From a virus: a stretch of DNA of 64,000 bases. The notes beneath the pieces were generated by a model. That model was not told the origin of the DNA, searched no databases, and was given only the letters and a program-made list of their open reading frames with translations. Below, in pieces: positions 4,348 through 48,097 of the stretch (positions within the stretch are counted from its first letter, which is position 1; the number at the start of each line of letters is the position of its first letter). Where the stretch lies: IMG/VR virus record IMGVR_UViG_3300042452_000781, positions 1 through 64,000 of that record. The stretch is one strand, 5' to 3'. Made by a program: the position numbers and the translations under genes.

Positions 4348-4356
4348 CTATTTAGA
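4348..4356 (-). promoter_or_regulatory. Late promoter-like TCTAAATAG upstream of the 52-aa gene
   Basis: A CTAAATA element on the minus strand about 20 bases before the ATG at 4326, overlapping the stop codon of gp20. It matches the T4-type late promoter core (TATAAATA) except for its first two bases. Confidence 0.4.
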
Positions 4357-26856: not shown

Positions 26857-26865
26857 CTATTTATG
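26857..26865 (-). promoter_or_regulatory. Late promoter-like CATAAATAG upstream of gp8
   Basis: ATAAATA on the minus strand about 17 bases before the gp8 ATG, overlapping the last codons of the gp7-like gene. Confidence 0.5.
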
Positions 26866-29800
26866 TGTAATTTTTATATTTGAGGGGATTAATTCTTTTG
26901 ATTATGGGTGATGTATTTATTCCAGAAATTCCATTAGTATAAACTGTAAATTTGTCGGATGAAACTCCATCAGGAATTGTAATTCTACCCCAACTATAAG
27001 TCCCATAAAAATTTGTCGCGGCAATACCAATATTGTTATTTTCCACTGATGTTATAACTCTAGCAATAGAGGTTGTTCCAATTCCCGAAACAACTGTACT
27101 GGCAATTGAAACTGAGGAAACTCTATAGACATTATCGAGATAGGTTGTTCCGGTTGAAATTAAAGAGCCGTTTTCATCTAACGATTTGATCCCATTGCCA
27201 AGGTGGGAATTTTTAACCACGAAATAGTATCCGGTTTGAATACCACTAACTGTAATTGCAGTGCCCACAATATTTGAATTTCTAAGGAATGAATCTTGCG
27301 GTATAAAGAGATCAAATATGAGAGCCGTTGATGCAATTCCAACTGAAGAAGTACCTATGCCTGAAATTAACCCGAAATCACCAGTATAGTTGCCGGCAGT
27401 TACGTCCTCGAAAATATTCTTAGGATTTTCAATCATAACTTGCGGCAGGGAAGTGAAAGTATAACCTACTCCGGGGGAGTTTATGGTTATTGAACTTATT
27501 GAACCTGATGAAATAAATGCAGTAGCATATGCTCTTGATGCAGTTGTAAATCCAACCGGAATCGGAAATGAAATTGCAGGAGAAGTAGCATAACCTTTCC
27601 CACCATCTATTGGTGTTGCAGAAACGATGGAACCTAAATTTGATACGGTTACAGTGGCAATAGCAACTCTAACTTCATCTTGAGAAACTATTCTCAATTT
27701 GTTTCTATAATCCAGAACGGTATTTTCCCGCTCATCATCAAATATGGTTCTAACATTCTCAACGAATAGTATATTTGTATTAATACCAACCGTTTTGATA
27801 ATATTTGTTGTTGGTTCTATAATATCCTCATAGATTTCTCTATTTTTGGTAACTTCAGTTTGATTTATGAAGAGATCTTCAGTCTGCTTCCTCCATCTTA
27901 TTGGTCTAGTATAAGATTCATCTTCGGCCACTCCGGCTCCACTGTATGTGATAGTGTTAACTGTATCAGATGAGGGTACGCCCGTAACTAACCTATCAGT
28001 TTCGGCATAATAAAAATCATCTTCCAATCTAACTAAATCTCCAGGTTTTACTGTTTCCACAACATCAACATCAATAACGTCGTTTGACCCAGAACCTCGA
28101 TAAAATAGAATTGCACATGAATAATTTTCTCTGGGGGGCTCGCTAAATGTTATAAAACTGCTACCGGTAATGGAATAACTCTCACCTGGGATTTGGAGAA
28201 TACCATTTATAAAAACAAGAAAAATGGTGTTGATGTCAATTAGTGAATTATAACCAGCCCGAATACTTCTTAATTCTTCATCAATTTTGAGGGGGAAGGA
28301 ACGTCTATTTCCATCAAATAGAATTTCAATTGAGTCAATAAGTTGTAATTGACCAAAAGACCACCCGGAAAATTCATTATTATAAATCTCATCCACTAGA
28401 ATTTTAAAATCAGAATATTGTGGTCCGGCTGGTGGATCATCTTCGGTAGTAGTGATAGTAATTGTACCACCACTTTGCCTCGATAAAGGATCTGTCTTGA
28501 CATTCGTAAAGGATGAATAGCGAAGTGTTCCAAGTTTATTTGATGCACCAAAGACTATATTATAGGTGCTACTGTTTAGTGTATTTTGATTCCCGCCATC
28601 AGAAACCCCCGGGGTAGAAGAGGTAGATTCGTTGATATATTGTGCAGTGCCAGTATTGGTTGCAGTGAACAATGAAACTGCATTATTTACGCCACAAAAA
28701 CTTTCTGTACCATCAAGATAAAACGAACCAAAAATAAGTTCAAAACGATTGGCCCAATTATGAACCTGGGCCAATCCCGAGGTGCCACCAGTAGAACTAG
28801 ATGTAGCTGTATCAAAGTAATAATCAAATCTTTGTTCGCCTAATACACCTGTAGATTGGCCTAATGGTATCCAATTGCCTACAGGAGCATAATTGCCAAC
28901 CAAACCTGTGTAGATAAAGTTTCTTCTGTTGGGAATAGCTCCAGTATTCATTGCCCCACCTGCGGGGTTAAACTGCATTGGTCTAGTATTAGATATTAAA
29001 TCTGGAACTGGCACATATGTAGCCCCAGAAGCGGTGAAAGTAAAGGTGATCGCACTACCAACCAGTGGAGGTGGAATTAGAGAAGATGGAATTCCTACAG
29101 TACCTCCAATAGCTACAGTTAAAATATCACCCTTTTTATAACCAAACCCACGATTAACAATTTCAACATCCACAACACTAGAGTTGATACCAACAGTAAG
29201 ATTAGCTCTTGCTCCAGTTCCAATTCCAGAAGATAATAGTGGTATATTTACATAAGGAAGTGGTGCATCAAATCTTATTGTGGGTGGATTTGTAAATGTA
29301 AACCCAGCCCCCGGATTAGTCAGATTAACGGAAACTACGTTTCCATTTAGAACGGAAGCTATACCAACATTTTGGAAAGTAGATAAACCGGCGATTGGAG
29401 AATAAGCACTAATCATTACGGTTTGGAGACCAGATCTATAACCGGATCCCGCATTATTGATGGTTATAGATGTAATCGTCCCGGCTAAAGAAACGTTAGC
29501 AGTACCTCCGGCAGAAACTAGCGGTTGTATCCCATACCCACGACTATACCCGATAGAAACGATTACTCCCCCTATTGGTAGCCCGGATCCATTTACGTCA
29601 TTCACCTGTGTTGCGGGGGCTCCTAGGAACCTTATAGACGATATTCCAGCGGTCTGTGAAATAGTGTAACTGTTGTATGCTCGGTTAAATCCGGTCAATT
29701 CGGAAGGAACTTGAAAAACTTCATTAATTAGTATTGAACCAGTATCTGTAGCAATTCCAGTAATATTTTGTGAATTACTTTTTAGAGTAAAAGTTGAAGA

Positions 29801-32800
29801 AATTCCGTTAAACCCACTAGAAATATCATCTAAAACAAAATTGGTATAATACGCATCATTTGGAGTATTTTTGATACCATTTCTCGTGAAAACTCTACCA
29901 TTAAAATTGAGAAACGATGTAATGCCGACATAATCAACATCTTCGGGTGAGCCCCCAACTGTTCCCATTGGCGATGGTCCTTTAGGTGGCTCTACAAAAT
30001 GTATAGTATTGTCAACAATATTGTAATTGCCTTGTATTTTATAAACTGTGGAATTTGCAGCATGGGTTGCGATACCGGTCCCAACCCAGGCTCGGTTAAC
30101 TGCAACGCTATTGGTTGATGCAATTCCAACAGAAATTACTTTTACAATTTCATCATCAATTTTTGCATAATCGCCACTAGCGAAATCCCCAATGCCCTGG
30201 AAGGAAATTGTCGTAGAACCTAGCCCGACAAATGAATTAATTGTAGTTGAGGTAGCGGTCGCCACAATTGGAGATTGAATGATACCACCTAGAGTTATGA
30301 TAGCCTTACTGTTTTGGTTAGTTGATTTTAATATGTGTGTACTACCAATTCCAACACTTGAGAGAATGAGAGGTATTGGTTTACTTTTGATGGCATTTTC
30401 TGCACTACTAGCTAATGCTATTTCAGATTCGCTGTATTTTACGACATATAAATTTGAGGGTAATTTGTCAGTAACACCGATTCCCGCGATATTAGTGCTT
30501 TGTATTCCTATTGGACCGCCGCTATAAGAATATGTAACTTTCTCACCATCAGCGAAGTAATGATTTGGTATTTTTATAATGTTATTTTGAATTTCAACAA
30601 CAGATTGACTACTACCATCAAAATTTCTAAGAAAAATATTTCTATTACGACTGGTTAGGTCAAACTGGCGGGTAATTCCGTCAAATTTTGGACTAATATC
30701 ATCAATAACTAGAACTCTATTTCCTACTACTAAAGAATAATCTTGTAATATTTTATTCTTAAAATAAATTTGATTAGATGCAAGATCCGTTCCAACTTTA
30801 AAATTATTTTCTGTGCCTAAATCATAATCAACAATAGCATTTAAGTCAACTTCTGAAATGCTGGATATATTGAGATTAAAAAGGGAATCATTTTGATCAG
30901 TATTGATACCACTTGACGGGGTGGATTCTACGATAAAATCTCCAAATTTTTTAAATCCAGCAATATGTGTTAGGCTACTGACCGGATTTTTCCAGGTGCC
31001 ATAGTCAATTTTAGATTTTAATGAATATGCAAAGGATTGATAATAATCACCGTCCTGGATTCTCTGAAATTCATTATCAAAAAATCCCTTTTCAGTATTC
31101 CAACCTTTTTTTACAATAGAGGATGAATTTGTGTTATATTTTGATTTAAAGTTATAGATTTTACTAACAGTCCCAAGCGAAAGGGAATCTGAGCCTGAAA
31201 TTAATGCCCCAGGGTACAAATCATCGGTCGAAGAAAGTGTCAAGAGTTCATTATCTTCGTTCCAAAATTGGACGATTCCTGTGAAATTATTTGAGGTAAC
31301 AATTTCGTCTTTTAGAAAAGAATTCTTGGTTAAATCAATTGTAAATTGTGGAAAGAATTTTTCTGGAACTACTGTCCCAGATAAAACCGATGTATTGAAT
31401 ATTCCGGGGTATTCGCCCGCCGATAATTTGTCGGCCATGCTATAAGTAATAGAGCCATTAGATCCACCGATATTTGGATTAATTTGTGTAATAGTGAATC
31501 TTGAATACTCATAAGAATATGAGTTATAACCTTTGGCCCCTGGATCTGTAATAATCGCAACATTTTCAATTAATACTTTATCTCCAACCATAAAGGGGAA
31601 ATCCGAAAGATTACTATACCCCTGATATAGAAATACTGTTACGTCTTTTGTGATAAAATTATATGTAATTGAATTTATTTGAATCCCATTTGAATTGTTT
31701 GTTGGAATAATTATGGGATCAACATTATTGATTCCCCTACTATTTTTAAATATCGTGACATCGCTATCTCCCAGTTCATATCTTAGGTCTACATCTGGAA
31801 CCCTTTTTAGTGTTAGACCATCCAATAAAACTAATGATGGAGGGAAAATATAATTTTTACCTTGAGACGCAATACCAACACTTTTCAATGTCGTTTGAGG
31901 CTCTACCTTAAGAACTAATGGAGTTTGAGTTAATGGGCTCAAAGTCAAATCTGCTGGATAGTCATAGCCTATATCGTTTATTTTTACACTGTTTATTCTC
32001 CCGATTGAACTACTAACAATCTCAAATATTGCATTAGATCCATTCTTGGTAATAACCGAACTGATTCCAGGGAGAAACTGGTATCCACCTCCACCTGAAG
32101 TGACAGTAATTCTGTCAATAGGTCCAGTTGCACTACTGGAATTTGTGATGTAGTTTACATTTCCATTATAGCTAGATTTTTCTGGAATATTTGGTATCGT
32201 ATAAGAGAACGCAGTGGTGCCCACTCCGCTAACCACATAAGACCCAGAATAAGAACTTTCAACAAAGTTAATTTTGTTGTAATTGTTATTATATTCTTTA
32301 TCAGTATAAACTGTTTGGCCTGTTTTAGAAATTAAGTTATAATATAGCTCGTTTGGTAAATTGCCATCATTCGTTAGAGTAACCTTTGCTACGGGGTCTA
32401 TACCAATTTTTCCATTTTTGGTTAGGTTAAATGTGCTAGTTTCATATGTCGTGTAGAATTTATTGGCGAAATGGTAATCTGTAAAAATATCAAAATCAAA
32501 TGAAGAGACTGTTTCAAATCCATTAAATTCGGAAAGAGAATGATCCGACAAGTCAAATATTATAGAATTACCACCAATAACATCAATACTTGGATTGATT
32601 TCTGAGAAAGCCCCCGGAGTGCTACCACTCAGTTCTACAAATTCCCTAGCTATTACTGCGCCATAGTAAGATCTACTCAGTCCAATTTTATCCGAATTGA
32701 CGACAATTGTATAATAAATTCCATTATTTTCTAGTCCAATTGTTGGAGAATTTGAAGTATAGATTATCTTTTTACCACTATAATACCTATGATTTTTAAT

Positions 32801-35800
32801 GGTGATAAAATTATCAACAACATCTATAGATGCAAAAGTTCTAGGATTTATAAGAAGCCTTTGAGTTTCTTTACTATATAAAACCTTAATAATTTGGTCT
32901 TCTTGTGGTTGCACATCTACGATAATTTGGTCATTTGGGAGCAATTCCGAAACTGATTCAGTGAAAACTGAGACTAAATTTTTATCAACTTGACCGCTAG
33001 TTGATTCATAAGAGGTCAAAAGACTATGCTTCTTCCCTGTGCCGGTGTTGTTATAGTATAGAATTTTCGCAGCACTTGTAGTATTATATCCGACATAATT
33101 TCCAGTGGAACCTACTCCAACCTTTTCAGTGGAAAGGCCAACAAAATCGCCAGAATATGCCACCGCATATAATATTGAACCGTCTGCCAGTGGATAAGTT
33201 AAGGGGCCGCTCGTTACGCTAAAGGATGAGCCCCCATTGTTTTTATAGATTAACTCCTCTCCTGTTGTTAGTGCATGTTCAGGAATGTATATTGATCTTG
33301 TAGGGACATAAACACTCGTAGGGCCGATTCCTGGATTTGAAAAGAAGATCGTAGTTCCAATACCGACACCCACAGATTCTGTCGGGTTGAAGTAAATTTC
33401 TTTATTAATAGGAGAATTTGTAAATCCCTGTCTCCCTGTGGGTATGAAGAATTTTCTAGGAATTTCTACTATTTCTGTACCTGCAATATGAGAAGTTCCT
33501 AAAGTTCCTGCATATTGTCGCTCTACTAATAATCTTGAAGATTTCAGATCAACATTCAATACTTTTATCTTTTCATCTTCTATTTGGAGTATATCATTTT
33601 CTCTAATATTTGGATAATTTAAATTTCCATATAGGTTAAGATATGTTATAGTTCCAGTAAAAAATGGAGCATCTAAGTTTGTATTTAATGTAAACTTTCG
33701 CCCTTCAACTGAGATTCTAAAGACTCTTTGTAACTGAGACTGATTGTGAGATAAATTTGAAATGCCTACTACATCATTATTTTGAAACAGGTGGGGCTCT
33801 TTGCAGAATCCTATAATTCCATATTGTGCATTTGGTGTAAATTCAACATCATAATATGAAGTGGAGGCAATGCTAATTGAGGAAACATTTTTCCCAATTA
33901 TTGACGACACTTCTGCTGCCGCATTTATACCACCTGAAATATCACTATTGAATAATAATTTGTCTCCAATTTTATAATTATCTCCACCCTCGGAAACTAT
34001 AATCGCCTCAACCGAACCTGGAAGTATGCTCGTTATTGTTGAGGTTTGTTCATATTGGCTGAAAGGTTGAACGAGATATTTGTAGAAACTATTTTTGGAA
34101 TTAAATGCAAACGGGGTTACATTTCTCAACCAACCAGTGCCATTTAAATCAATTAAATCTTGATTTGACGAGTAAATAAAATTAAAATCTACAACTTTTG
34201 AATGGTATGTATTTCCTATAAAATATGGAAAGGCCGGCTTAAAATAATTTGCAAATGCCCCAACAGTTTCATATGCACTGTTAGAAATCGTTGAAAAATA
34301 CGCATATGTTCCATTAGGAAATTCTGGTGTCACACAATAACGGCCATTGTGCTCATCTAAATCGCCTGTATTTTTGAATTGGTAATCGTCAACAAAAAAT
34401 CCTTGGGGATATAGAGTTAGGTTCGGTCTGTTTGCGTCTATTACAATTTGATAAGAACTTTCTATACATTTTACGGCACCGCCTGTCTGTCTTTCATAAC
34501 CATATGGTCCGTAAATTGGGCTTCCATCATATGCCCATCCTAAAATTGGGGAGTGAGAATCTGATACCTTTTCTGTTCCATTTACGAACTGTAAATCAGG
34601 TTGATATGTTAAATTACCTGCAATATATTTCGATGCCGATAGGATTCCCCTCAACTTTCTTGGGGCATAACCATGAGTATATTGTAACCCGTAGTCTGAA
34701 TTTATACTCTTTGAGATAATTCCATCATCATCTACAATTTTATTTGTCTGAAATAGTCTTTCAATATTGTTAACAGTCCATCTTTTTATATTGGCCCTAA
34801 TTTTGGCACCATAACCGGCGGGGGTTACTGTTAAGTAAGTATTTCTTGGATCATAATCATAACCGGAATTGATAACTTTTACTTCCTTTATCTCACCATT
34901 TTCAATAATGGGGGTTAATCTTGCACCTCTACCGGAACCAACAATAGTAATGTCTGGAGGAGAGTTGTATCCTACACCAGAATTGATTACTAATACTTGG
35001 GTTATTTTCCCACCGGTTACAATTGCCTGTAATTGTGCCGATTCGCCACTCTTGAAGTTAATCGTTGGTTGCCTATTGTAATTTAAAATGTCTTCTTGGC
35101 CATATTTTTTCCCGCCATTTTCAACTAATACTGAAGTAATTTCACCTCGGAAAATTGGCTGAATTTTGGCTGAAAAGTGAGTGCCAATTCCAGAAATTCC
35201 ATCAATAGTTACAATAATAGGTTCATAGTTGAAATAATGTGTTCCAGTGCCTGAATTTGTAAGAGTTACGAATTGGCCAGTCTTAAAATAATAATCTGGA
35301 ACCTTTGGTGCAACTTCTGACAATTTGAAGCTATTTTCATTTATTGCCGTAACGTAGTAACTCCTATTTGTGGCTAGTCCTGAAATTGGAGCGTCAGTAT
35401 AACCTTCATAAACAATCAACTCACCAGTCTTAAAGTTATGCTCACCTTTATTGATTATATTTGTTTCAATACTAATTCCCCTATAGTCAACGGAAACTTT
35501 ACGATTTTTATAGCCTTCTCCTGGATCAACTATATTAACGGATGAAACCTTTGTTTTAGGTGAAGCTGAAACGATTCTATGGTTAGCTATTCCACTTGGA
35601 ATTAAGGTAATAGTGTTGATGCCCGAAATTGCATCAGAATAAATCTTATGCAATTTGATACTCTGGGCATCCACCGTAGATGTAAAATATTGAGAATTTG
35701 TTGTTATACCAGTAACTTTGGTTAAACCATCTGGCTTGAAGATTACCTTTTCTGCATTGTTAAATCCGTGAAATGTACTAAATCCGATGACATTATTTAC

Positions 35801-38131
35801 AATTGAGGTAGACTCAAAACTAGCAGAGTGCTCAAAAAGACTAATTTCGGCCCTGGCCCTGGCATTTTTACCATTACCGCCTGAAATAGTGATGGATGGC
35901 TCAGAATTAAAATTAAGACCTGGATTTAAGATTCTAATTTCCTTTAAAGATCCGGTCACTTCACAGTTGGCTAGAGCCTCAGAACCCGTTTCATCGGTAA
36001 TCTCAATTAGTGGGGGATTGATAACATCATAATCCGATCCAGGAGAGATGACGACAATGGAATCTATAGGTCCATAGAATACAGCATCCTGTGATTTATA
36101 GTTTAAAATTTCAACACCGTTGTTCAGAATACCAGTATTTCCAATCGGCGTCGGTGTAGGTGTTACTGTTGGAATTGGTTTTGTGATTTTTCTGAAAAGC
36201 TTTTGATGGTTTAAAGTTTTACCGAAAAAATCATTATACGAAAGAGTGTTGTTCGTTACGGTTCCCCGAACACTAACGAAAACCCCAGCTTTTAAATTTG
36301 TTCTACTTGTCGCTAATGATATGGAGTCTTTTGTGACTTTCTTGGCATAATAGATACCTTTTGCGATTCCGAGATTGCTAGAAGTATAATCGTAAATTAC
36401 CACATCGCCAGTATAGAATCCATGATTTGTATAGTTTATTACGGTTCCATTAAAGGTGCCATTTAAAATAATCCCCCGAGCATTTACTTCCAATGGCTCT
36501 TGAAAATAACCCGGAATGGATGGCGTGGAAACGTAATAGTTTTCAGAAGAATCAACATAAACATTTTGAACATTCGCCAGATAATTGCTAACATCTGGAA
36601 AATTTGTGGCTGCTGCCCTAGTAATTTCTCTCTCAATATAGTCAATATTTGAGAAAACGAGTTCACCCTGCCCCTGGACAATAAACGTATTGAAATTTAT
36701 TTTAGAATAGATTGGGGTTCGTATAATTGTTCCATTTTTATAGAAAATTTTTATTATATCGCCAGCATTTAGGGAATTTTCATCAATCGTTTTAACTTCA
36801 TATTGTCCCGTTAGCGAATCCAATAGCCTTATTGATTCTAAAATGTAGCAGCTTGGAATATTGTATTGCCAAGTTTTTGACCGAATATCATTACTCAATT
36901 TCCCTAAAGATTTTGGCCTTATATCATCCCCAACATTTAATTGGTAGGCATTAACGATTTCTTCAAAATCACCAATAACTCCAGTTACACGAACACTCAC
37001 AACATCTGAGGTATTCTGGCCGCTGTAACCATATGCAAAGGCATTTACCGCAACTGTATCGCCGGCATTTAGATTAAATGAAATGCCAGAACATCCGAAA
37101 AACTGGTTTATAGATTTTGAGGTATAGTTTAGAACTGAATTGTCGCTCAATAGCAAAGAACCTGCCTGTGGAAATCCAACTGTAGAATCTACATCTAAGG
37201 TTGTGGAACCAATAGGCGCAGAGCTTGTCAGTTGAGTTTTAGGATGAATTGAAAATTCTCCGATTTCACTCGTATTTCGGTTAAAATCATAATCTAGACT
37301 AATAATATAGTAGGTTTTGTCTCCGCGATTTATTTTCTCTACCTTACTAATCGATCCAGTAGCTTTATTATAATACTCTGTTTCATCTTGAAATAATGTT
37401 CTGTTCTCCAGAAGAGTCGGGTCGCCAAAGATAGACTCAACAACTAAATCTTTTGATACTCTATATTCGGCATCAGATGGGGTAAAAAGATAATCCCTTG
37501 GCTTTAGTACTTGTACGGGTTCACCGTAAAGAGCCCCAAAAAGTATCTCAAATGCCTTATCTGTACCCTTGGTGGCATAGAAATCTTTTGACCTTTGAAT
37601 GAAAGTTGTCTGGTTTAATTCATCAGTGAATTCTCTACCCTCAAACCCTGGAATAAGCTGCTTCTTGAGCTTTTCTAAGAATCTGTTAAGGAAAAGAACG
37701 CTAAGATTTTCTACAATAGCATTGTCTAGATGACTAGAAGATTCTGTTGTTGAAAATTCTAAATTATAATTCGATGTACCACAAAACCCTCTTACACAAT
37801 CGTTGAAAGTCGTATCAGTTTTTGAAGTATATGTAATAATTTCGGAATCAATTTTTAATAGCCCATATGATTCTGGAAAACCTTTAGTTGAGGTTACTGT
37901 AATAACGGTATCAGTAAATGAAATATCTGTAGTTAAGAATGATGATTGTATATTGTTTGTTAGATTTTCTAATTTTGTATATTGATCAATATTAGGAATT
38001 AAATCAAACGGTCCACCTTTATATTCACCTGAAACAAAATATTGGCGCATAAAATCCACCAATAGTGGTGATTCTTCTCTTAGAAAAGAAGGAATCTGGC
38101 TTCCAACGATAGAGCTTATTTTAACTTTCAT
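26861..38131 (-). CDS. gp7: Giant gp7-like baseplate wedge initiator (3756 aa) with YHYH-like domain
   Basis: By far the largest gene. The N-terminus (SSIVGSQIPSFLREESPLLV, DFMRQYFVSGEYKGGPFDLI) and KDFYATKGTDKAFEILFGAL match the wedge-initiator gp7 of cyanophages, which is expanded several-fold relative to T4 gp7 (1032 aa). Near residue 1200 the phrase LGWAYDGSPIYGPYGYERQ marks a YHYH-like domain. Most of the rest is repeated beta units, including SGGDNYKIGDKL and NSGYDYDPRN. It lies between gp6 and gp8 as expected. The expansion may make it both wedge scaffold and peripheral adhesive structure; that is inference. Confidence 0.9.
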   Translation of the reverse strand: MKVKISSIVGSQIPSFLREESPLLVDFMRQYFVSGEYKGGPFDLIPNIDQYTKLENLTNNIQSSFLTTDISFTDTVITVTSTKGFPESYGLLKIDSEIITYTSKTDTTFNDCVRGFCGTSNYNLEFSTTESSSHLDNAIVENLSVLFLNRFLEKLKKQLIPGFEGREFTDELNQTTFIQRSKDFYATKGTDKAFEILFGALYGEPVQVLKPRDYLFTPSDAEYRVSKDLVVESIFGDPTLLENRTLFQDETEYYNKATGSISKVEKINRGDKTYYIISLDYDFNRNTSEIGEFSIHPKTQLTSSAPIGSTTLDVDSTVGFPQAGSLLLSDNSVLNYTSKSINQFFGCSGISFNLNAGDTVAVNAFAYGYSGQNTSDVVSVRVTGVIGDFEEIVNAYQLNVGDDIRPKSLGKLSNDIRSKTWQYNIPSCYILESIRLLDSLTGQYEVKTIDENSLNAGDIIKIFYKNGTIIRTPIYSKINFNTFIVQGQGELVFSNIDYIEREITRAAATNFPDVSNYLANVQNVYVDSSENYYVSTPSIPGYFQEPLEVNARGIILNGTFNGTVINYTNHGFYTGDVVIYDYTSSNLGIAKGIYYAKKVTKDSISLATSRTNLKAGVFVSVRGTVTNNTLSYNDFFGKTLNHQKLFRKITKPIPTVTPTPTPIGNTGILNNGVEILNYKSQDAVFYGPIDSIVVISPGSDYDVINPPLIEITDETGSEALANCEVTGSLKEIRILNPGLNFNSEPSITISGGNGKNARARAEISLFEHSASFESTSIVNNVIGFSTFHGFNNAEKVIFKPDGLTKVTGITTNSQYFTSTVDAQSIKLHKIYSDAISGINTITLIPSGIANHRIVSASPKTKVSSVNIVDPGEGYKNRKVSVDYRGISIETNIINKGEHNFKTGELIVYEGYTDAPISGLATNRSYYVTAINENSFKLSEVAPKVPDYYFKTGQFVTLTNSGTGTHYFNYEPIIVTIDGISGIGTHFSAKIQPIFRGEITSVLVENGGKKYGQEDILNYNRQPTINFKSGESAQLQAIVTGGKITQVLVINSGVGYNSPPDITIVGSGRGARLTPIIENGEIKEVKVINSGYDYDPRNTYLTVTPAGYGAKIRANIKRWTVNNIERLFQTNKIVDDDGIISKSINSDYGLQYTHGYAPRKLRGILSASKYIAGNLTYQPDLQFVNGTEKVSDSHSPILGWAYDGSPIYGPYGYERQTGGAVKCIESSYQIVIDANRPNLTLYPQGFFVDDYQFKNTGDLDEHNGRYCVTPEFPNGTYAYFSTISNSAYETVGAFANYFKPAFPYFIGNTYHSKVVDFNFIYSSNQDLIDLNGTGWLRNVTPFAFNSKNSFYKYLVQPFSQYEQTSTITSILPGSVEAIIVSEGGDNYKIGDKLLFNSDISGGINAAAEVSSIIGKNVSSISIASTSYYDVEFTPNAQYGIIGFCKEPHLFQNNDVVGISNLSHNQSQLQRVFRISVEGRKFTLNTNLDAPFFTGTITYLNLYGNLNYPNIRENDILQIEDEKIKVLNVDLKSSRLLVERQYAGTLGTSHIAGTEIVEIPRKFFIPTGRQGFTNSPINKEIYFNPTESVGVGIGTTIFFSNPGIGPTSVYVPTRSIYIPEHALTTGEELIYKNNGGSSFSVTSGPLTYPLADGSILYAVAYSGDFVGLSTEKVGVGSTGNYVGYNTTSAAKILYYNNTGTGKKHSLLTSYESTSGQVDKNLVSVFTESVSELLPNDQIIVDVQPQEDQIIKVLYSKETQRLLINPRTFASIDVVDNFITIKNHRYYSGKKIIYTSNSPTIGLENNGIYYTIVVNSDKIGLSRSYYGAVIAREFVELSGSTPGAFSEINPSIDVIGGNSIIFDLSDHSLSEFNGFETVSSFDFDIFTDYHFANKFYTTYETSTFNLTKNGKIGIDPVAKVTLTNDGNLPNELYYNLISKTGQTVYTDKEYNNNYNKINFVESSYSGSYVVSGVGTTAFSYTIPNIPEKSSYNGNVNYITNSSSATGPIDRITVTSGGGGYQFLPGISSVITKNGSNAIFEIVSSSIGRINSVKINDIGYDYPADLTLSPLTQTPLVLKVEPQTTLKSVGIASQGKNYIFPPSLVLLDGLTLKRVPDVDLRYELGDSDVTIFKNSRGINNVDPIIIPTNNSNGIQINSITYNFITKDVTVFLYQGYSNLSDFPFMVGDKVLIENVAIITDPGAKGYNSYSYEYSRFTITQINPNIGGSNGSITYSMADKLSAGEYPGIFNTSVLSGTVVPEKFFPQFTIDLTKNSFLKDEIVTSNNFTGIVQFWNEDNELLTLSSTDDLYPGALISGSDSLSLGTVSKIYNFKSKYNTNSSSIVKKGWNTEKGFFDNEFQRIQDGDYYQSFAYSLKSKIDYGTWKNPVSSLTHIAGFKKFGDFIVESTPSSGINTDQNDSLFNLNISSISEVDLNAIVDYDLGTENNFKVGTDLASNQIYFKNKILQDYSLVVGNRVLVIDDISPKFDGITRQFDLTSRNRNIFLRNFDGSSQSVVEIQNNIIKIPNHYFADGEKVTYSYSGGPIGIQSTNIAGIGVTDKLPSNLYVVKYSESEIALASSAENAIKSKPIPLILSSVGIGSTHILKSTNQNSKAIITLGGIIQSPIVATATSTTINSFVGLGSTTISFQGIGDFASGDYAKIDDEIVKVISVGIASTNSVAVNRAWVGTGIATHAANSTVYKIQGNYNIVDNTIHFVEPPKGPSPMGTVGGSPEDVDYVGITSFLNFNGRVFTRNGIKNTPNDAYYTNFVLDDISSGFNGISSTFTLKSNSQNITGIATDTGSILINEVFQVPSELTGFNRAYNSYTISQTAGISSIRFLGAPATQVNDVNGSGLPIGGVIVSIGYSRGYGIQPLVSAGGTANVSLAGTITSITINNAGSGYRSGLQTVMISAYSPIAGLSTFQNVGIASVLNGNVVSVNLTNPGAGFTFTNPPTIRFDAPLPYVNIPLLSSGIGTGARANLTVGINSSVVDVEIVNRGFGYKKGDILTVAIGGTVGIPSSLIPPPLVGSAITFTFTASGATYVPVPDLISNTRPMQFNPAGGAMNTGAIPNRRNFIYTGLVGNYAPVGNWIPLGQSTGVLGEQRFDYYFDTATSSSTGGTSGLAQVHNWANRFELIFGSFYLDGTESFCGVNNAVSLFTATNTGTAQYINESTSSTPGVSDGGNQNTLNSSTYNIVFGASNKLGTLRYSSFTNVKTDPLSRQSGGTITITTTEDDPPAGPQYSDFKILVDEIYNNEFSGWSFGQLQLIDSIEILFDGNRRSFPLKIDEELRSIRAGYNSLIDINTIFLVFINGILQIPGESYSITGSSFITFSEPPRENYSCAILFYRGSGSNDVIDVDVVETVKPGDLVRLEDDFYYAETDRLVTGVPSSDTVNTITYSGAGVAEDESYTRPIRWRKQTEDLFINQTEVTKNREIYEDIIEPTTNIIKTVGINTNILFVENVRTIFDDERENTVLDYRNKLRIVSQDEVRVAIATVTVSNLGSIVSATPIDGGKGYATSPAISFPIPVGFTTASRAYATAFISSGSISSITINSPGVGYTFTSLPQVMIENPKNIFEDVTAGNYTGDFGLISGIGTSSVGIASTALIFDLFIPQDSFLRNSNIVGTAITVSGIQTGYYFVVKNSHLGNGIKSLDENGSLISTGTTYLDNVYRVSSVSIASTVVSGIGTTSIARVITSVENNNIGIAATNFYGTYSWGRITIPDGVSSDKFTVYTNGISGINTSPIIKRINPLKYKNYT

Positions 38132-40647: not shown

Positions 40648-41307
40648 ATGGAAAGCGTAGATTTTAAGGGTTTGTATGAATCTTATAGAAGTGTTTATAA
40701 TGAAGAAGTAGAGGAGCTTGATGAGATGAAAGAGGGCTATACCGATCCAAAATTCAATAGAAAAGAATATTTAGCCAAACTCTCAAAACGGGGTGGCATG
40801 GGGATGGGCACGAAAGAAGATCCTCATGGTTATAGAGACCCTAAAATGGCTAAAGTTGGTGCAGAATTTGTAAAAAGGACAACTGCACGATCCAAGTCAA
40901 AAAAGTCTGGAGAGCCTGATGAATATAAAACTGAAAAGGAATCACAATCAAAACTGAGATCTACCAATGAATCCACCGATCTATATGATCTAGTTCTAGA
41001 ATATCTTCTTGATGAAGGTCTTTGCGAATCAGTTGAAAATGCTGAGATTATGATGGCTCATATGAGCGAGGGTTGGGTTGATGCTATTGTTGAAGAAAAG
41101 AAAGTTGTGATGAGCGTCACTTCACCTACCGGGAAGAATCGGCAACTAAATACAACTCGCGCAACGAGTCCAGCAAAAAATCTATCAGGTCAGGATCGCC
41201 TTGCTGCCGCGAAAGATTTGAGGCAGAAAAAAGTAGACAAGCGTGCGTACCAAATTAGCGCAAAACTAAAACGTAGGTATGGACTTAGAAGTAGTGATTT
41301 AGATTGA
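40648..41307 (+). CDS. Cyanophage protein (219 aa) with shared C-terminal EGL-MSEGW motif
   Basis: Begins MESVDFKGLYESYRSVYNEE. The N-terminal LYESYRSVY motif is a recurrent opening of small cyanophage proteins. Near residue 115 it has YLLDEGLCESVENAEIMMAH followed by MSEGWVDAIVEEKK, a motif shared with the genes at 42566 and 44180. The C-terminus is basic (QKKVDKRAYQISAKLKRRYG). It is expressed from the late divergent promoter and ends at a strong terminator. Possibly a head-associated protein; function unknown. Confidence 0.75.
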   Translation: MESVDFKGLYESYRSVYNEEVEELDEMKEGYTDPKFNRKEYLAKLSKRGGMGMGTKEDPHGYRDPKMAKVGAEFVKRTTARSKSKKSGEPDEYKTEKESQSKLRSTNESTDLYDLVLEYLLDEGLCESVENAEIMMAHMSEGWVDAIVEEKKVVMSVTSPTGKNRQLNTTRATSPAKNLSGQDRLAAAKDLRQKKVDKRAYQISAKLKRRYGLRSSDLD

Positions 41308-42533: not shown

Positions 42534-42541
42534 CATAAATA
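42534..42541 (+). promoter_or_regulatory. Late promoter-like CATAAATA for the plus-strand cluster
   Basis: ATAAATA on the plus strand 25 bases before the ATG at 42566. Confidence 0.5.
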
Positions 42542-42565: not shown

Positions 42566-42841
42566 ATGCCTATTGATACCGCCGAGTTAAAGAGACTCAT
42601 TGCCAAGAAGTCTGCCAAATTGAGCAAACCACCCTCGTATGGAAAGACTAATAGAACGCAGACTGATGAGGCGGAAAAGGAATTTAAGAATGAGCGTGAT
42701 AAGCTGATGAAAGAGTATAAAGAAATCATTGCAGACATTTTATTCAATGAAGGATTGGTTGATTCTCAAGAATCCTTGAAAGTAATTCTTGGTGTTATGA
42801 GTGAGAGTTTTATTGAAAAAGTAGCTAGAAATTCCAAATGA
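42566..42841 (+). CDS. Small helical protein (91 aa) with the shared EGLVDSQES...MSE motif
   Basis: Begins MPIDTAELKRLIAKKSAKLS. The C-terminal half ILFNEGLVDSQESLKVILGV followed by MSESFIEKVA matches the motif in the genes at 40648 and 44180. It is translationally coupled (ATGA) to the basic protein at 42838. It is first in a four-gene plus-strand operon that may be packaged into the head; function unknown. Confidence 0.75.
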   Translation: MPIDTAELKRLIAKKSAKLSKPPSYGKTNRTQTDEAEKEFKNERDKLMKEYKEIIADILFNEGLVDSQESLKVILGVMSESFIEKVARNSK

Positions 42842-43476
42842 AAACTTTTGACCAGTTTATAAACGAGGCTAAGCACGGCCCCCGTAGCTCAAAGGAACGA
42901 AGACAGCAAAGAGGCGAGAATTTATCAAAAATTCTAAAACGGAGAATGGGAACTAGAGCCAAAATTCGTGGTGGAAGCGATGAACATATTCACACCACTT
43001 CAGATCCTGATGATGTTTCAATAGAAATTAGAAAATATAAAAATCCAGCACATTATGCTGCAGGTGAAACCCCAAAGGTCAATACTATTAATGGAAAAAA
43101 TGTAGTCGTTAAAAACTCAGAAAGAGCGTTTAAGGCAAATCAGCTAAGAAAACAAATAACCAAAAATCGTAGAAACCCGAAAGGAACCGTATTCACTACT
43201 GATATTGTCCCAAATTTAGAAAGAGGACATGGTGATTTTGAGAACATTAAAAAGAGAACTCAAAATCTTAAAAAGGCTGTTGGAAATGTTCCAAGAGAAA
43301 TTAAAAAAGCCGGAGGAAAGTCTGGTGATGTTGTTATTGGAAAACCCGGTCAAACTCAAAGTGGCGGTCCAGAAAAAGCCGGAAGAAATTCCAGGGCTAA
43401 GTTATATAAAAAGCTACTTCCTAATGCCAGTAAAATGAACCCCGTTACAAATCGTATGATGGGTAAAGTAGAATGA
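42838..43476 (+). CDS. Basic candidate internal head protein with capsid-targeting-like N-terminus
   Basis: 212 residues. The N-terminus MKTFDQFINEAKHGPR closely resembles the capsid-targeting sequence of T4 internal proteins (MKTYQEFIAEA), and I-N-E/A fits the gp21 protease rule ([LI]-x-E before A/G), predicting removal of ten residues. The rest is very basic and Lys/Arg-rich (KERRQQRGENLSKILKRRMG), which suits packing with DNA. No enzyme motif is evident. It overlaps both neighbours by ATGA. Packaging and injection with DNA are inferred by analogy. Confidence 0.78.
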   Translation: MKTFDQFINEAKHGPRSSKERRQQRGENLSKILKRRMGTRAKIRGGSDEHIHTTSDPDDVSIEIRKYKNPAHYAAGETPKVNTINGKNVVVKNSERAFKANQLRKQITKNRRNPKGTVFTTDIVPNLERGHGDFENIKKRTQNLKKAVGNVPREIKKAGGKSGDVVIGKPGQTQSGGPEKAGRNSRAKLYKKLLPNASKMNPVTNRMMGKVE

Positions 43477-43856
43477 AGACATTTGAAGAATTTCTGAATG
43501 AGGCAAATCAACCAAAATCCGATGCCCTAAAAACTATCAGTAAAAACTGGGAAAGAAGACCAAATTATAAGGGAGTCAACGTATATGCAACTCAAAATAA
43601 AGACCACATAAGAGTTCACGACTTATTTGTGCCGTCTCATTTGAGGGGCAAAGGTGTTGGTGGTAGAGTTATGAAAGGAGTTACAAGATTAGCAGATAAA
43701 CAGGGCTCCAAAGTATCTTTAAATCAGGCCCCGGCTCCAGGTTATAAGAAAAAGTTAGACACATTTTATAAGAATTTTGGTTTTAAGTCTAATAAAGGAA
43801 GAAATAAAGACTTTACAACAAGAGATACACATATCAGGCAACCAAAAGATAAATAA
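43473..43856 (+). CDS. GNAT-like acetyltransferase with capsid-targeting-like N-terminus
   Basis: 127 residues starting MKTFEEFLNEANQPK, again a T4 internal-protein-like leader with the gp21-type site L-N-E/A after residue 10. From about residue 35 it follows the GNAT pattern: a beta strand HIRVHDLFVPSHL, the acetyl-CoA loop RGKGVGGRVM ([RQ]-x-x-G-x-G), the helix KGVTRLADKQG, and a C-terminal YKNFGFK that resembles the GNAT FYxxxGF motif. It is short for the family but has the core. The sequence suggests an acetyltransferase delivered in the virion, comparable in logic to T4 Alt; the target is unknown. Confidence 0.8.
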   Translation: MKTFEEFLNEANQPKSDALKTISKNWERRPNYKGVNVYATQNKDHIRVHDLFVPSHLRGKGVGGRVMKGVTRLADKQGSKVSLNQAPAPGYKKKLDTFYKNFGFKSNKGRNKDFTTRDTHIRQPKDK

Positions 43857-43866
43857 AATAAAAAAG

Positions 43867-44151
43867 ATGCAACCAAACAAGACATTTGAAGAATTTCTTT
43901 CTGAGGCCATTGCAGCCACTAGAGCTACAACTAGAGGCAGAAAAATTCCAGGCGCGGCTCAGAAAATAACTGCCCAAAATGACCGCAGAGAAGAAGCCCG
44001 AGCACGCCAACGTGAAAGAGAGGCTCAAAGGCAGAGAGACATTGAATATGCTCAAGAGCGAAGAGCGAATCCAGAGCTTATTAAAAAAGAAGCAAGAAAA
44101 AGAACCCTTCCCAGTAGAATGGAAAGAGCCGCACAAAAGTTGGGTTTATGA
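43867..44151 (+). CDS. Small basic candidate internal head protein (94 aa)
   Basis: I choose the ATG at 43867 (MQPNKTFEEFLSEAIAAT) because the longer ORF starts inside the upstream gene. KTFEEFLSEA repeats the capsid-targeting-like leader with site L-S-E/A. The remainder is an Arg/Glu/Gln-rich helix (RREEARARQREREAQRQRD) with a basic tail (RKRTLPSRMERAAQKLGL). Third member of the leader-bearing set in this operon. Confidence 0.72.
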   Translation: MQPNKTFEEFLSEAIAATRATTRGRKIPGAAQKITAQNDRREEARARQREREAQRQRDIEYAQERRANPELIKKEARKRTLPSRMERAAQKLGL

Positions 44152-44179: not shown

Positions 44180-44578
44180 ATGGACATTAGAGAACTTTCT
44201 AATTTGTATGATTCTTATGTGGCCATTTACGAGATGAAGTCCACTCGTATTTCAAAGAGTAGAGAAGCTTATATTAATCCCGATCAAAGTAAAGACTGGA
44301 AGCATAATAAAGAATTAAATTGGGGCGAAACTCATCCTAAAGTACCTTCACATAAAGAAGCAATGGTCAAAAGACTAAAATTTGCCATTGGCACTCAAAG
44401 GCGTCAAGATAAAGAAACTGGTATGCGTGAACACGTCTTAGATTATCTTGTAAATGAAGGCTACGTTGATTCTTATGAGTCGGCTGAATGTGTTTTAGAG
44501 GCTATGAGTGATGAATGGTTGGAGAGTATCGTTGAGGCGAAGAAAGCTAAAATTATGGTTGACGTTAATAACCCATAA
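44180..44578 (+). CDS. Cyanophage protein (132 aa) with shared EGYVDSYES...MSDEW motif
   Basis: Begins MDIRELSNLYDSYVAIYEMK, again the LYxSYxxxY opening. The C-terminal YLVNEGYVDSYESAECVLEA and MSDEWLESIVEAKKAK match the motif of the genes at 40648 and 42566, and S-I-V-E/A would fit a gp21-type site. It has its own late promoter-like element and ends at a long hairpin. Function unknown. Confidence 0.75.
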   Translation: MDIRELSNLYDSYVAIYEMKSTRISKSREAYINPDQSKDWKHNKELNWGETHPKVPSHKEAMVKRLKFAIGTQRRQDKETGMREHVLDYLVNEGYVDSYESAECVLEAMSDEWLESIVEAKKAKIMVDVNNP

Positions 44579-44687: not shown

Positions 44688-45488
44688 TTAATTGAGAGAA
44701 TTTAAAACTTTTTTCTTTCTTCCGCCCACTCCAGGACACTTTTTGCCTTTATTGGGCGGAACCTTACTTTTCATAGGATTTCTGTCCCCTTGCTTTGAGA
44801 AACGCCTGCAGCAAGTTTGTCCCATTTTTAATCCAGTAACTAGAACTTCTCTTTCTCCACCGCAATCACAATACACTTTAACTTTAGACCATTTTGTTAT
44901 TCTGGATGGAATGTAAACTACAGACAATCCTCTTCTTTGACATTCTTGTGCAATGTGTTCTCTCCAATACTTATCGCCATAAGATGTAGTTCTATTTTCT
45001 CGCAAAATTACTTTTGCTTGTTTTAATAATACCATAATTGAACCTTTTGATAGCCCAATCTTGTTTGCAATTTTGGTAATTGAAAGTTTTTCATTCTCAT
45101 AAAGATACTTTGCATAATCTCTATGTTGTTGATTTATACTTATTCCTCTGTTCCAACCACCTTCCACATAATCATTATTTGTTTTGTTAATGCAAAGTGG
45201 ATTGTTTTTTAAATTGTAAGTTTGAAGAACAATGGTCTCATAATCAACAGCATCTTTATCTGTTTCAAAAAATGCTATAGGATACAAAGTTCTTTTTAAG
45301 AGATTCCAATTACTATCAGAAGAACTTCCAAGATAACCATCGTTTAAATTATGAGTTGAATGCTTCCCGAAATAAAAGTAGTTCGGATTTTCTTCTGAAA
45401 CTACAACGTAAACAAAATGAAATTCACCAGTAGATTTACTTCTTACACTTTCTACCAGTAAATTTGAATACAATAAGTCCTTGTCCAT
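44688..45488 (-). CDS. GIY-YIG-like free-standing homing endonuclease
   Basis: 266 residues. Residues 25-60 contain FVYVVVSEENPNYFYFGKHS followed by DGYLGSS, a GIY-YIG variant as found in phage seg-like endonucleases. The middle has a helix-turn-helix (YENEKLSITKIANKIGLSKG). The C-terminus has Cys pairs (VYCDCGGE, QTCCRRF) and a NUMOD3-like GDRNPMKSKVPPNKGKK DNA-contact motif. It lies directly downstream of the psbA terminator. Free-standing endonucleases next to psbA are known in cyanophages (F-CphI of S-PM2 is one), so it may target psbA alleles; that is inference. Confidence 0.8.
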   Translation of the reverse strand: MDKDLLYSNLLVESVRSKSTGEFHFVYVVVSEENPNYFYFGKHSTHNLNDGYLGSSSDSNWNLLKRTLYPIAFFETDKDAVDYETIVLQTYNLKNNPLCINKTNNDYVEGGWNRGISINQQHRDYAKYLYENEKLSITKIANKIGLSKGSIMVLLKQAKVILRENRTTSYGDKYWREHIAQECQRRGLSVVYIPSRITKWSKVKVYCDCGGEREVLVTGLKMGQTCCRRFSKQGDRNPMKSKVPPNKGKKCPGVGGRKKKVLNSLN

Positions 45489-45530
45489 ACGGGTTCATAG
45501 TTTTAACGGCATTGCTATTTAGTGCGTATT

Positions 45531-45555
45531 AAAAAGGGAGAACCGAAGTTCTCCC
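45531..45555 (-). terminator. psbA terminator
   Basis: On the minus strand GGGAGAAC, UUCG-type loop, GUUCUCCC followed by TTTTT. A textbook intrinsic terminator about 40 bases after the psbA stop codon. Confidence 0.92.
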
Positions 45556-45593
45556 AATTTTGCCGATATGGTTCTATGAACCGTAACTATTTA

Positions 45594-45652
45594 TCAACCA
45601 ATAGTTGGGGCTTTTAGAGCAATTTCTTGAGTAGAAACTGCAGCCAAATCTA
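45594..45652 (-). CDS. psbA: psbA exon 5 (codons 341-359)
   Basis: Begins TA completing Leu341 and reads [18 protein letters not shown] to a TGA. A344 is the processed C-terminal residue in mature D1, so the last 15 residues would be removed by the host CtpA protease. Confidence 0.88.
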
Positions 45653-48097
45653 CACTTGGCCCATAAGTTTACCATTCTTATGGAGTGGACTATATCATCA
45701 CCATTGAAGGTGTCGGACGCTTATTCCTGTTATTAAGGGGACTAAACCCCTCAGGTAGTCTCTGAAGTTTCCTCAAGTGTACTTGAGGCTTACCTGCTGA
45801 TTGCCCAGTGTTTTGGAGGGTTTCCAGCAATTCATCCGATGTTTCATCTATCAATTACTTGATAGAGCCACTAGATTTTCTAATGGGAAGTTGTGGGCGT
45901 TTCTCTCATGTCGTTTGTTATCGTAAGAACTCTTTATTTCTTACTTCTTACTATCACTAGTAAGTCCAGACTATCTCTTCATCCGTTCTGGATGCTGGGC
46001 ATTCGTGGGTAGATTATTGTTGGAACTCACTACCTAGTCGTTAGACCTGCCGAAGAACCTATGTCCTCTTCGGATTGGTACGGGATTGTCTACTTGAGAG
46101 TTTCCCCGTTTAACCCAGTTTCGTCAAGGAATATTCCTATTCCAGGGTGACTACATTTAAGAAATCACTTCCATTCCAAGCCCAGCTTTGTTCAATACGT
46201 CCGACCAGGTATTAATTACCCGACCTTGACTATCTTGGATAGATTGATTGAAATTAAATCCGTTCAGGTTGAATGCCATAGTGCTAACACCAAGAGCAGT
46301 AAACCAGATGCCCACAACAGGCCATGCGGCGAGGAAGAAGTGCAGCGAACGGGAGTTATTAAAGGACGCATATTGGAAAATAAGACGACCGAAATACCCG
46401 TGAGCGGCAACAATTGAATAAGTTTCTTCCTCTTGGCCAAACTTATACCCATAATTTTGAGATTCATTTTCGGTTGTTTCACGAACAAGGCTGCTAGTGA
46501 CTAACGAGCCATGCATCGCTGAGAAAAGACTTCCTCCGAATACTCCCGCCACACCCAACATGTGAAAAGGATGTTGAAGGATATTGTGTTCTGCCTGGAA
46601 TACCAACCATTAGGCAGAACGGGGACCTATGTTTTCATAGGGATTGGACTATCTCATAATTAATAGAAATTTCTATTAATCTCGGGCGCTGATTCTGGTT
46701 ATTAAGAGGGCTATACCTCTCCAGTAGTCTCTACACTTTACATGAGTGTACTCAAGTCTTAGCACGGTATTGGCATATCTATAAGACTTAGCTTTCACCG
46801 TTTTCACCCGATTTATACTACACATTGGTTTAGTTTATGTAGTTAAAGGTTCCTGAAATGCCAAGGGGCATCGCATCTGAAAAAGAACCTTGACCGAAGG
46901 GATAGATTAGGAATACGGCAGTAGCAGCAGCAACGGGTGCGCTGTAAGCAACCATAATCCAAGGACGCATTCCGAGACGATAAGAAAGTTCCCATTCACG
47001 GCCCATGTAGCAGTAAATACCAATCAGGAAGTGAAATATGATGAGTTGAAATGGACCCCCATTATAGAGCCATTCATCAAGACTTGCAGCTTCCCAAATT
47101 GGATAAAAATGCAGCCCAATAGCATTAGAAGAAGGAACAACAGCACCAGAGATAATGTTGTTACCATACATTAGTGAACCAGCAACTGGTTCACGAATCC
47201 CGTCGCTTACATCTAACAAACAACCATATCAATAGACTTAGGTTGTTTCTGTTGGCGAATTCGATTTGCTCTTTTTGCGTTTTCAACTCTTCCACCGTTT
47301 TCTACCCACTCTTTCCAAGTTTGTAGATGAGAAATACATTCGGTTATTCTTTCCCCCCGTCTTACTCCCATATAAGGGAGTATTTTTTGTAGAATGAATA
47401 AGACCTTTTCTTTTTCTCCGATGTGAAGGGTATAAACTTGTTTCCCTGTTACCGTTTTTCTTGATGGAGAAAAGTAAGATTTATCTAAAAGTTTGCTCAA
47501 CCTTTGGATAATATCTTCATCAACCATAGAAATTTTGATAAAGGGTGCTGGTGGTGTTTTAGAAATTTCATAGCGGTCTTTGGAACGATCATCTATTCCA
47601 AAGTATCCTTCACCTTCTAATAAACCAGCAATCCAAGCAATATCAGTTTCAGTTAAATTTAACATTTTGGTTTGCGTCTTCTGTATTATTTATACAGCAT
47701 TAGCAACAAAAAGTCAACAGTAGATGTGTGGACTATATCTTCACCCTTTATAGAAGGGGCTGGGCACTTAAACCTGTTATTAAGGGGACTAAACCCCTCA
47801 GGTAGTCTCTGAACCTTCCCCAAGTGTACTTGAGGCTTGGCTGCTGATTGCCTTTCGGTTTCCAGCAATTCACCCAGTTTCGTCAATACTCTTACGAGTA
47901 AGGGACACCGATTAGTTAATGTCTACAGGAGGTGCGCCAATAAAAGCGATAATAAAAACTGAAGTAGCAGCAAGAAGGCAAGGAATCATAAGAACTCCAA
48001 ACCATCCCACATATAAACGATTGTTCGTTGAAGTAACCCAGGAACAAAATTGCTCCCAGAGATTACCCCCCGAGCGTGTAGCAATTGAAGCGGTCAT
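45594..48097 (-). CDS. psbA: Photosystem II D1 protein, five exons split by four group I introns
   Basis: Joining 48097-47919, 47205-46837, 46607-46164, 45911-45883 and 45652-45594 gives 1080 nt, or 359 residues plus stop, the usual D1 length. At every junction the exon ends in T and the intron in G, as group I introns require. The product starts [20 protein letters not shown] and keeps the QEEET and [15 protein letters not shown] phrases. It retains the manganese-cluster ligands D170, E189, H332, E333, H337, D342 and A344, and H190 beside Tyr-Z. Phage D1 maintains host photosynthesis during infection. Oddities: Ile at the usual Met331 and Leu at 184. Confidence 0.93.
45653..45882 (-). ncRNA. 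psbA group I intron 4 (230 nt)
   Basis: Lies within the Leu341 codon (CCAT/TAGAT). The minus strand has the P7-like pair CAGAGACTA (near 45760) and GATATAGTCC (near 45690) and the stretch TTAAGxxGGGGTTTAGTCCCC-type P8. It lacks an ORF. The core is strikingly similar to that of intron 1. Confidence 0.88.
45883..45911 (-). CDS. psbA: psbA exon 4, 29-nt microexon (codons 331-341)
   Basis: Reads HERNAHNFP with partial flanking codons, i.e. D1 residues 331-341 including H332, E333 and H337. Found by matching the conserved D1 C-terminus; both ends agree with the U/G group I splice rule. Confidence 0.88.
45912..46163 (-). ncRNA. psbA group I intron 3 (252 nt)
   Basis: Splits codon 331 (GTGAT/ACATGAG). 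It has GACGAAACTGGGT near its 5' end and GAAGAGATAGTCTGG as the P7 3' strand. No ORF. The sequence between differs from introns 1, 2 and 4, so it is a separate group I lineage. Confidence 0.85.
46164..46607 (-). CDS. psbA: psbA exon 3 (codons 183-331)
   Basis: Starts with the G completing Met183, then [20 protein letters not shown], and runs to NKAGLGMEV. Contains E189 and H190, the H215 and H272 iron ligands ([10 protein letters not shown] and FFLAAWP regions) and the [17 protein letters not shown] phrase. Confidence 0.92.
46608..46836 (-). ncRNA. psbA group I intron 2 (229 nt)
   Basis: Splits codon 183 (TACAT/GTTGG). The core contains GTAGAGACTACTGGAGAGG and the P7 3' partner GAGATAGTCC. 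No ORF. Related in sequence to introns 1 and 4, but more diverged. Confidence 0.87.
46837..47205 (-). CDS. psbA: psbA exon 2 (codons 60-183)
   Basis: Starts with the C completing Ile60, then [20 protein letters not shown] and runs to GISGTFNY. Contains Tyr161 and D170 ([13 protein letters not shown] region) and H118 ([10 protein letters not shown]). Confidence 0.92.
47206..47918 (-). ncRNA. psbA group I intron 1 (713 nt) with endonuclease gene
   Basis: Splits codon 60 (GACAT/CGACGG). It begins TAACTAATCGGTG, has GACGAAACTGGGT, GAATTGCTGGAAACC, CAGAGACTACCTGAGG and the P7 3' strand GATATAGTCC near 47730. A LAGLIDADG ORF occupies its 3' part and stops seven bases before the splice site. Confidence 0.9.
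47213..47665 (-). CDS. Intron-encoded LAGLIDADG homing endonuclease
   Basis: 150 residues starting [34 protein letters not shown] is a single LAGLIDADG motif, so the enzyme would act as a homodimer. Later phrases [20 protein letters not shown] and [13 protein letters not shown] fit LAGLIDADG domains. It lies wholly within psbA intron 1, after the ribozyme core, and should drive intron homing into intronless psbA. Confidence 0.88.
47919..48097 (-). CDS. psbA: psbA exon 1 (codons 1-60)
   Basis: [20 protein letters not shown] through [10 protein letters not shown], the D1 N-terminus and first membrane helix ([19 protein letters not shown]). Reads into the intron and stops three codons later if unspliced. 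Confidence 0.93.

Follow-up and report, generated by a model that had tools for sequence, protein, structure and literature searches.

A 64,000-nucleotide stretch of viral DNA (positions 1 to 64,000 of IMG/VR record IMGVR_UViG_3300042452_000781; hereafter the window) carries a short open reading frame whose product, according to an initial annotation, is a GNAT acetyltransferase that is packaged in the phage head and acts on host proteins as soon as it is injected. The question raised by this locus is whether a phage might deliver such an enzyme to its host together with its genome. The following features of the window, and one of a related contig, bear on the answer.

42535–42541, + strand: late-promoter-like box ATAAATA, 24 bp upstream of the first gene of the operon
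42566–42841, + strand: first operon gene, 91 aa, without leader, overlapping the next start by 4 bp
42838–43476, + strand: 212-aa basic protein with leader MKTFDQFINEA, overlapping the GNAT start by 4 bp; its gene recurs as a conserved partner on related contigs
43473–43856, + strand: GNAT acetyltransferase ORF with capsid-targeting leader, ATG start, 127 aa
43473–43502, + strand: predicted capsid-targeting sequence (CTS) MKTFEEFLNE, residues 1–10, by homology to T4 ipII/ipIII
43644–43661, + strand: acetyl-CoA pyrophosphate loop R58-G-K-G61-V-G63, from an alignment of 62 relatives
43764–43814, + strand: motifs FYKNFGF (98–104, Y99 invariant) and NKGRNKDF (107–114), the latter a putative family signature
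43867–44151, + strand: 94-aa basic protein with leader NKTFEEFLSEA; box at 43849–43855, 11 bp upstream
44150/44151, + strand: junction; an extra gene lies here in sister contigs L007, L009 and L012 (blastn against the window)
L007:5675–6121: CTS-tagged ART-fold gene, 148 aa

The leader-bearing ORF is present exactly as first described and is a real gene, with a translation (43473–43856, + strand) that reads MKTFEEFLNEANQPKSDALKTISKNWERRP...RGKGVGG...FYKNFGFKSNKGRNKDF.... The two motifs singled out earlier, RGKGVG and YKNFGFK, occupy residues 58–63 and 99–105. Pfam model Acetyltransf_10 matches the ORF with an E value of 4.4e-6 (27.1 bits; cut-off 23.6), and Acetyltransf_7 and Acetyltransf_1 also score above their curated cut-offs. 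Among the 62 relatives, R58 and G61 of the acetyl-CoA loop are invariant and G63 is nearly so, in agreement with the R/Q-x-x-G-x-G/A loop of the GNAT superfamily. Alignment of solo and fused relatives likewise reveals that FYKNFGF and NKGRNKDF are nearly invariant. The gene is under strong purifying selection, as evident by dN/dS values of ~0.04–0.07 against close relatives (whole gene, dN 0.01–0.05 and dS 0.25–0.77; core, dN 0.00–0.05).

The predicted structure points in the same direction. An AlphaFold model built from 62 sequences (pLDDT 83.6) was compared with solved structures by Foldseek, and each of the 40 PDB matches at E ≤ 0.001 is either annotated as an acetyltransferase or known to have a GNAT fold, among them Naa50, Ard1, RimI, GCN5, TacT1 and AcrVA5. 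TM scores by query are only ~0.43–0.57; for AcrVA5, a compact anti-CRISPR acetyltransferase, the TM score by target is 0.70. Protein N-acetyltransferases rank best among the solved structures, and the best viral matches are segments within very large phage proteins. A GNAT fold had been set beforehand as a test of the proposal, and both the Pfam matches and the predicted fold bear it out.

The argument for packaging begins with the leader. Residues 1–11 (MKTFEEFLNEA) align without gaps to the start of T4 IPII and IPIII (MKTYQEFIAEA). For T4 IPIII, the first ten residues are enough for packaging, and mutations assign targeting to CTS residues 4 and 7 and processing to residues 8 and 10 (PMC9026906). 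The GNAT leader agrees with the T4 CTS at each of these four mapped positions, carrying an aromatic residue at position 4, F7, a hydrophobic residue at position 8 and E10, and gp21-type cleavage is predicted after residue 10 (LNE|A). A PHROG family of internal head proteins, phrog_2667, also matches residues 1–16 (E 0.017). The N-terminal pattern [TS][FYL]xxF[ILVMT]xE occurs in three consecutive genes among the window's 118 ATG ORFs, where shuffling of N-termini predicts 0.019; its presence there is not due to chance. Searched as degenerate DNA, the leader matches only ipII, ipIII and gp61.1 in T4, and its reversed control gave no match in 10 records. The third T4 gene (NC_000866 18966–19130, - strand; L086), gp61.1, encodes a 54-aa hypothetical protein that starts with the CTS-like leader MKTFKEFIKED.

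In a set of 61 distinct leader proteins encoded on related contigs, there is no variation at positions 2, 7 and 10, position 4 is F or Y (one L), position 8 is I, L or M, and position 11 is mostly A, while positions 5 and 9 and all from 12 onward vary freely; the set was chosen by a pattern spanning positions 3, 4, 7, 8 and 10, and therefore the fixed positions are partly circular. Similar leader conservation is seen in T4-like solo GNAT homologues with an intact frame, a set fetched by homology, and they retain the leader with cores that are only 36–58% identical to that of the window. Relatives were fetched with six peptide patterns, and because one of these is the leader itself the fetched set favours leader-bearing matches. 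Persistence of the leader could also reflect descent.

The leader genes lie on the + strand between a gp25-gp6-gp7 block on the - strand and psbA, and the genes starting at 42566, 42838 and 43473 overlap successively by 4 bp. The published late promoter of cyanomyoviruses is NATAAATA (PMC2984593). By consensus, the operon start bears the late-promoter box of structural genes, and [ACT]TAAATA occurs 8–32 bp upstream of 11 of 24 gene starts in the late region and operon, where 0.3 would be expected from random positions and 1.2 from shuffled upstream sequence. The signal is informative only in this relaxed form, placed upstream of gene starts. The strict T4 late promoter TATAAATA was rejected as a candidate, being rarer than chance in the window. 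In S-CRM01, a late box directly precedes an otherwise isolated GNAT homologue. Two further + strand genes with late boxes (40648–41307 and 44180–44578) share an N-terminal LYxSYxxxY and a LisH-like C-terminal stretch, and these possibly constitute another leader class.

Several other genes of the window carry insertions or domains of separate interest. The gp20 portal (4355–6502, - strand, 716 aa), which is nearest to those of B23 and marine Synechococcus myoviruses, has an intein-like insertion near residues 350–500 (Intein_splicing E 6e-8, slightly under the curated cut-off). The large terminase subunit gp17 (9431–12103, - strand, 891 aa) has a LAGLIDADG_3 domain at 288–345, and its insertion is probably an intein with a homing endonuclease. 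The psbA gene (44688–48097) is interrupted, and two intron-like insertions are suggested by a GIY-YIG-like ORF (44688–45488), a LAGLIDADG ORF (47213–47665) and a pair of similar short read-through peptides. A gp7-like baseplate protein (26861–38131, - strand, 3756 aa) has a YHYH domain at 1190–1285.

A T4-type prohead protease (Peptidase_S77) was found in all five near-complete leader-bearing records tested, and none was found in two records whose GNAT relative is without a CTS. The window contig, which appears to stop before gp21, gave no Peptidase_S77 match. The mature 117-aa GNAT protein has a pI of 10.5, compared with 9.6 for the T4 internal proteins, and CTS-bearing cores are more basic than the other cores.

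Relatives of the gene fall into solo and fused forms. In B23, the leader-bearing homologue gp252 adjoins gp25; in S-CRM01, g185 (annotated as an acetyltransferase) sits amid tRNAs and small genes outside the structural block, and T4 ipI is likewise near tRNAs. Among 80 IMG/VR loci, about two dozen (including near-copies) hold a solo form with the leader, and in most of the remainder the GNAT domain is part of a larger ORF, the longest being 2721 aa, where the core is without the CTS tag. Fusion partners include ART-PolyVal (L054, L056 and L058), LPD22 (L003), DarB-like and DNA methyltransferase modules (L041), and a portal-like domain (L064) that was matched by PHROG and that Pfam gave no confirmation of. 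The window protein matches phrog_10691 (E 8e-14), and its core aligns with domains of large ORFs. In a tree, the cyanophage CTS forms group together except for L037 (leader MKTLNQFITEN), which is placed among fused forms, and the CTS label requires two changes. As separate observations, the leader and the GNAT core of L014 and L016 lie in different frames, a frameshift that may be gene decay or assembly error, and L039 carries a second, diverged leader-bearing GNAT-like paralogue (5374–5724) directly 3′ of the GNAT gene.

A polyvalent GNAT family found beside ART domains was previously predicted to be injected, and was assigned to a RimI-like clade whose members are believed to act on proteins (Iyer et al., 2017; PMC5512222). 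The ART adjacency in L054, L056 and L058 points to this family, beside which we set the window core by description, and the fused relatives are predicted to belong to a packaged or injected class. Because the window ORF is solo and only 127 aa, not multidomain, we regard it as a solo relative of that family rather than a polyvalent protein. A scan of genome contigs with the single pattern NKGRNKDF returned only two homologues, both in metagenome-assembled genomes, and thus pointed to no cellular source.

Most related T4-like contigs carry, beside the GNAT gene, another CTS-tagged gene whose product has a predicted ART-superfamily (KptA/Tpt1-like) fold. An ART-like gene accompanies GNAT in 25 loci (several are near-copies or on the same contig), mostly with 280–680 bp between the matches, and these neighbours are likewise leader-bearing. 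In L007, L009 and L012 the gene encodes 148 aa; by blastn it is cleanly absent from the window. The YHGT family of such proteins resembles KptA weakly by sequence (E 0.0087; phrog_5470, E 7e-4). Its model (pLDDT 81) finds KptA/Tpt1 structures as the first 16 matches, with a best E value of 2.5e-3 and TM scores of 0.3–0.4, and so an ART fold is likely for this family, though not firm. The HYT family (L017, L022, L025 and L027) is related to the YHGT family, which alone was modelled. A tblastn search of the phage collection for the ART-fold neighbour of L020 gave no match, and PADLOC matched neither the GNAT nor the ART-fold proteins. Other leader-bearing cargoes include several basic proteins, an L121 protein in which sequence inspection shows a HELVH motif, and a P-loop protein resembling polynucleotide kinase (L013:5408–6034; AAA_33 E 5e-8) that replaces the ART-fold gene. 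In L105 (3001–4389), leader-ART, GNAT and an additional stretch share one frame of 462 aa, and in L123 (2164–3552) a frame of equal length contains a second, internal leader; assembly error is possible in both.

The explanation that we consider probable is that the gene product is an internal head protein of the T4 type with an active GNAT as its cargo, ejected into the host to acetylate one or more of its proteins early. Under this model, synthesis would be late and shared with the other two leader-bearing proteins; the 10-residue CTS would bring the protein into the core of the prohead, and a gp21-type prohead protease would trim it at LNE|A, as T4 homology predicts for both of these steps. 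The basic mature protein would stay with DNA in the head, enter the cyanobacterium along with the genome, and acetylate host proteins within the first minutes, most likely targets of defence or take-over. We infer packaging, cleavage, ejection, catalytic activity and a protein substrate from these comparisons. The head location proposed in the initial annotation is strongly supported at the sequence level by leader homology, the late promoter, the protease in relatives and basic charge, from which residence in the virion is deduced. Acetylation of host proteins is suggested by GNAT precedent.

Three other explanations need to be weighed. The protein might be packaged and yet use its GNAT fold merely as a binding module, either to block a nuclease of the host or to condense DNA. 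T4 internal proteins are diverse basic proteins with a like leader, IPI inhibits a restriction enzyme by binding, and both the pI of the mature protein and the greater basicity of CTS-bearing cores would suit such a role. This explanation is unlikely, however, given that R58, G61, G63 and Y99 are invariant or nearly so in 62 relatives and that the core has accumulated so few nonsynonymous changes. More doubtful again is a packaged GNAT that acts, in the manner of GNAT toxins, on aminoacyl-tRNA or a small molecule instead of a protein. TacT1 is indeed among the fold matches and the S-CRM01 copy lies amid phage tRNA genes, but among solved structures the closest fits are protein N-acetyltransferases, and the polyvalent GNATs were placed in a protein-modifying clade (Iyer et al., 2017; PMC5512222). 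Moreover, no ribbon-helix-helix antitoxin-like partner was found among the tested neighbours, on which basis membership in GNAT toxin-antitoxin systems was rejected.

The least probable of the three is an ordinary late enzyme with a merely CTS-like N-terminus, which would stay unpackaged and act in the producing cell, perhaps on proteins of phage or host. Phage GNATs that work within infected cells are known, such as Rac of phiKMV-like phages, which affects host RNA polymerase alpha. Yet the leader is common to unrelated neighbours (the 212-aa, 94-aa, ART-fold and kinase-like proteins), and its functional CTS positions are conserved, in contrast to the variable residues 5, 9 and those from 12 on. 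A common destination best explains why unrelated neighbours share a leader conserved in this way.

The proposed internal head protein can be compared with several known systems. Like T4 IPI, IPII and IPIII, it is small and basic, with a 10-residue N-terminal CTS and an IxE/LxE|A cleavage motif, and like them it belongs to a variable set of several genes. The T4 proteins are CTS-packaged and ejected, but none is a GNAT, whereas the window cargo is an acetyltransferase. With the polyvalent GNATs (Iyer et al., 2017; PMC5512222) the comparison is through large phage proteins that hold a homologous core with the NKGRNKDF signature; there, the domain is embedded in a large multidomain polypeptide, in contrast to the solo, CTS-bearing form of the window. 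AcrVA5, which acetylates Cas12a, has a compact GNAT fold of similar size and is 17–18% identical over aligned columns. We know of no report that AcrVA5 is packaged. The analogy to T4 Alt drawn in the initial annotation holds in part: Alt is likewise a head-packaged enzyme that modifies host proteins upon injection, so the logistics would correspond, but the chemistry does not, since Alt is an ADP-ribosyltransferase, and in relatives it is a neighbouring CTS-tagged gene that has the predicted ART fold. Membership in the Alt family was rejected because a GNAT domain is found in place of the ART catalytic domain.

It had also been stated that no packaged acetyltransferase is described for cyanophages. 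Literature searches found no description of cyanophage CTS proteins or of packaged cyanophage acetyltransferases, but injected polyvalent GNATs sharing this core had been predicted earlier. Each element taken singly (the CTS, injected GNATs, cargo diversity) had thus been known or predicted, and the novelty is their combination: for a solo CTS-tagged GNAT, paired in relatives with a tagged ART-fold gene, the literature searched holds no description.

Cyanomyoviruses are reported to be without Alt, ModA and ModB, which makes the tagged GNAT and ART-fold pair a candidate replacement. A broader proposal, on which we are evenly divided, is that the locus represents an unbundled polyvalent protein, in which separate and exchangeable CTS-tagged GNAT, ART-fold, kinase-like and metalloprotease-like genes are co-packed and co-injected in place of the missing Alt and Mod enzymes. 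If so, the joined leader-tagged neighbours of L105 and L123 would represent a route between solo genes and polyvalent proteins. The finding joins two literatures, those of T4 internal proteins and of polyvalent injected proteins, and a search for the leader offers a simple way to find more injected effectors in phages of marine and fresh waters. A packaged acetyltransferase and, in relatives, its tagged ART-fold partner would be concrete candidates for action on the host before phage gene expression.
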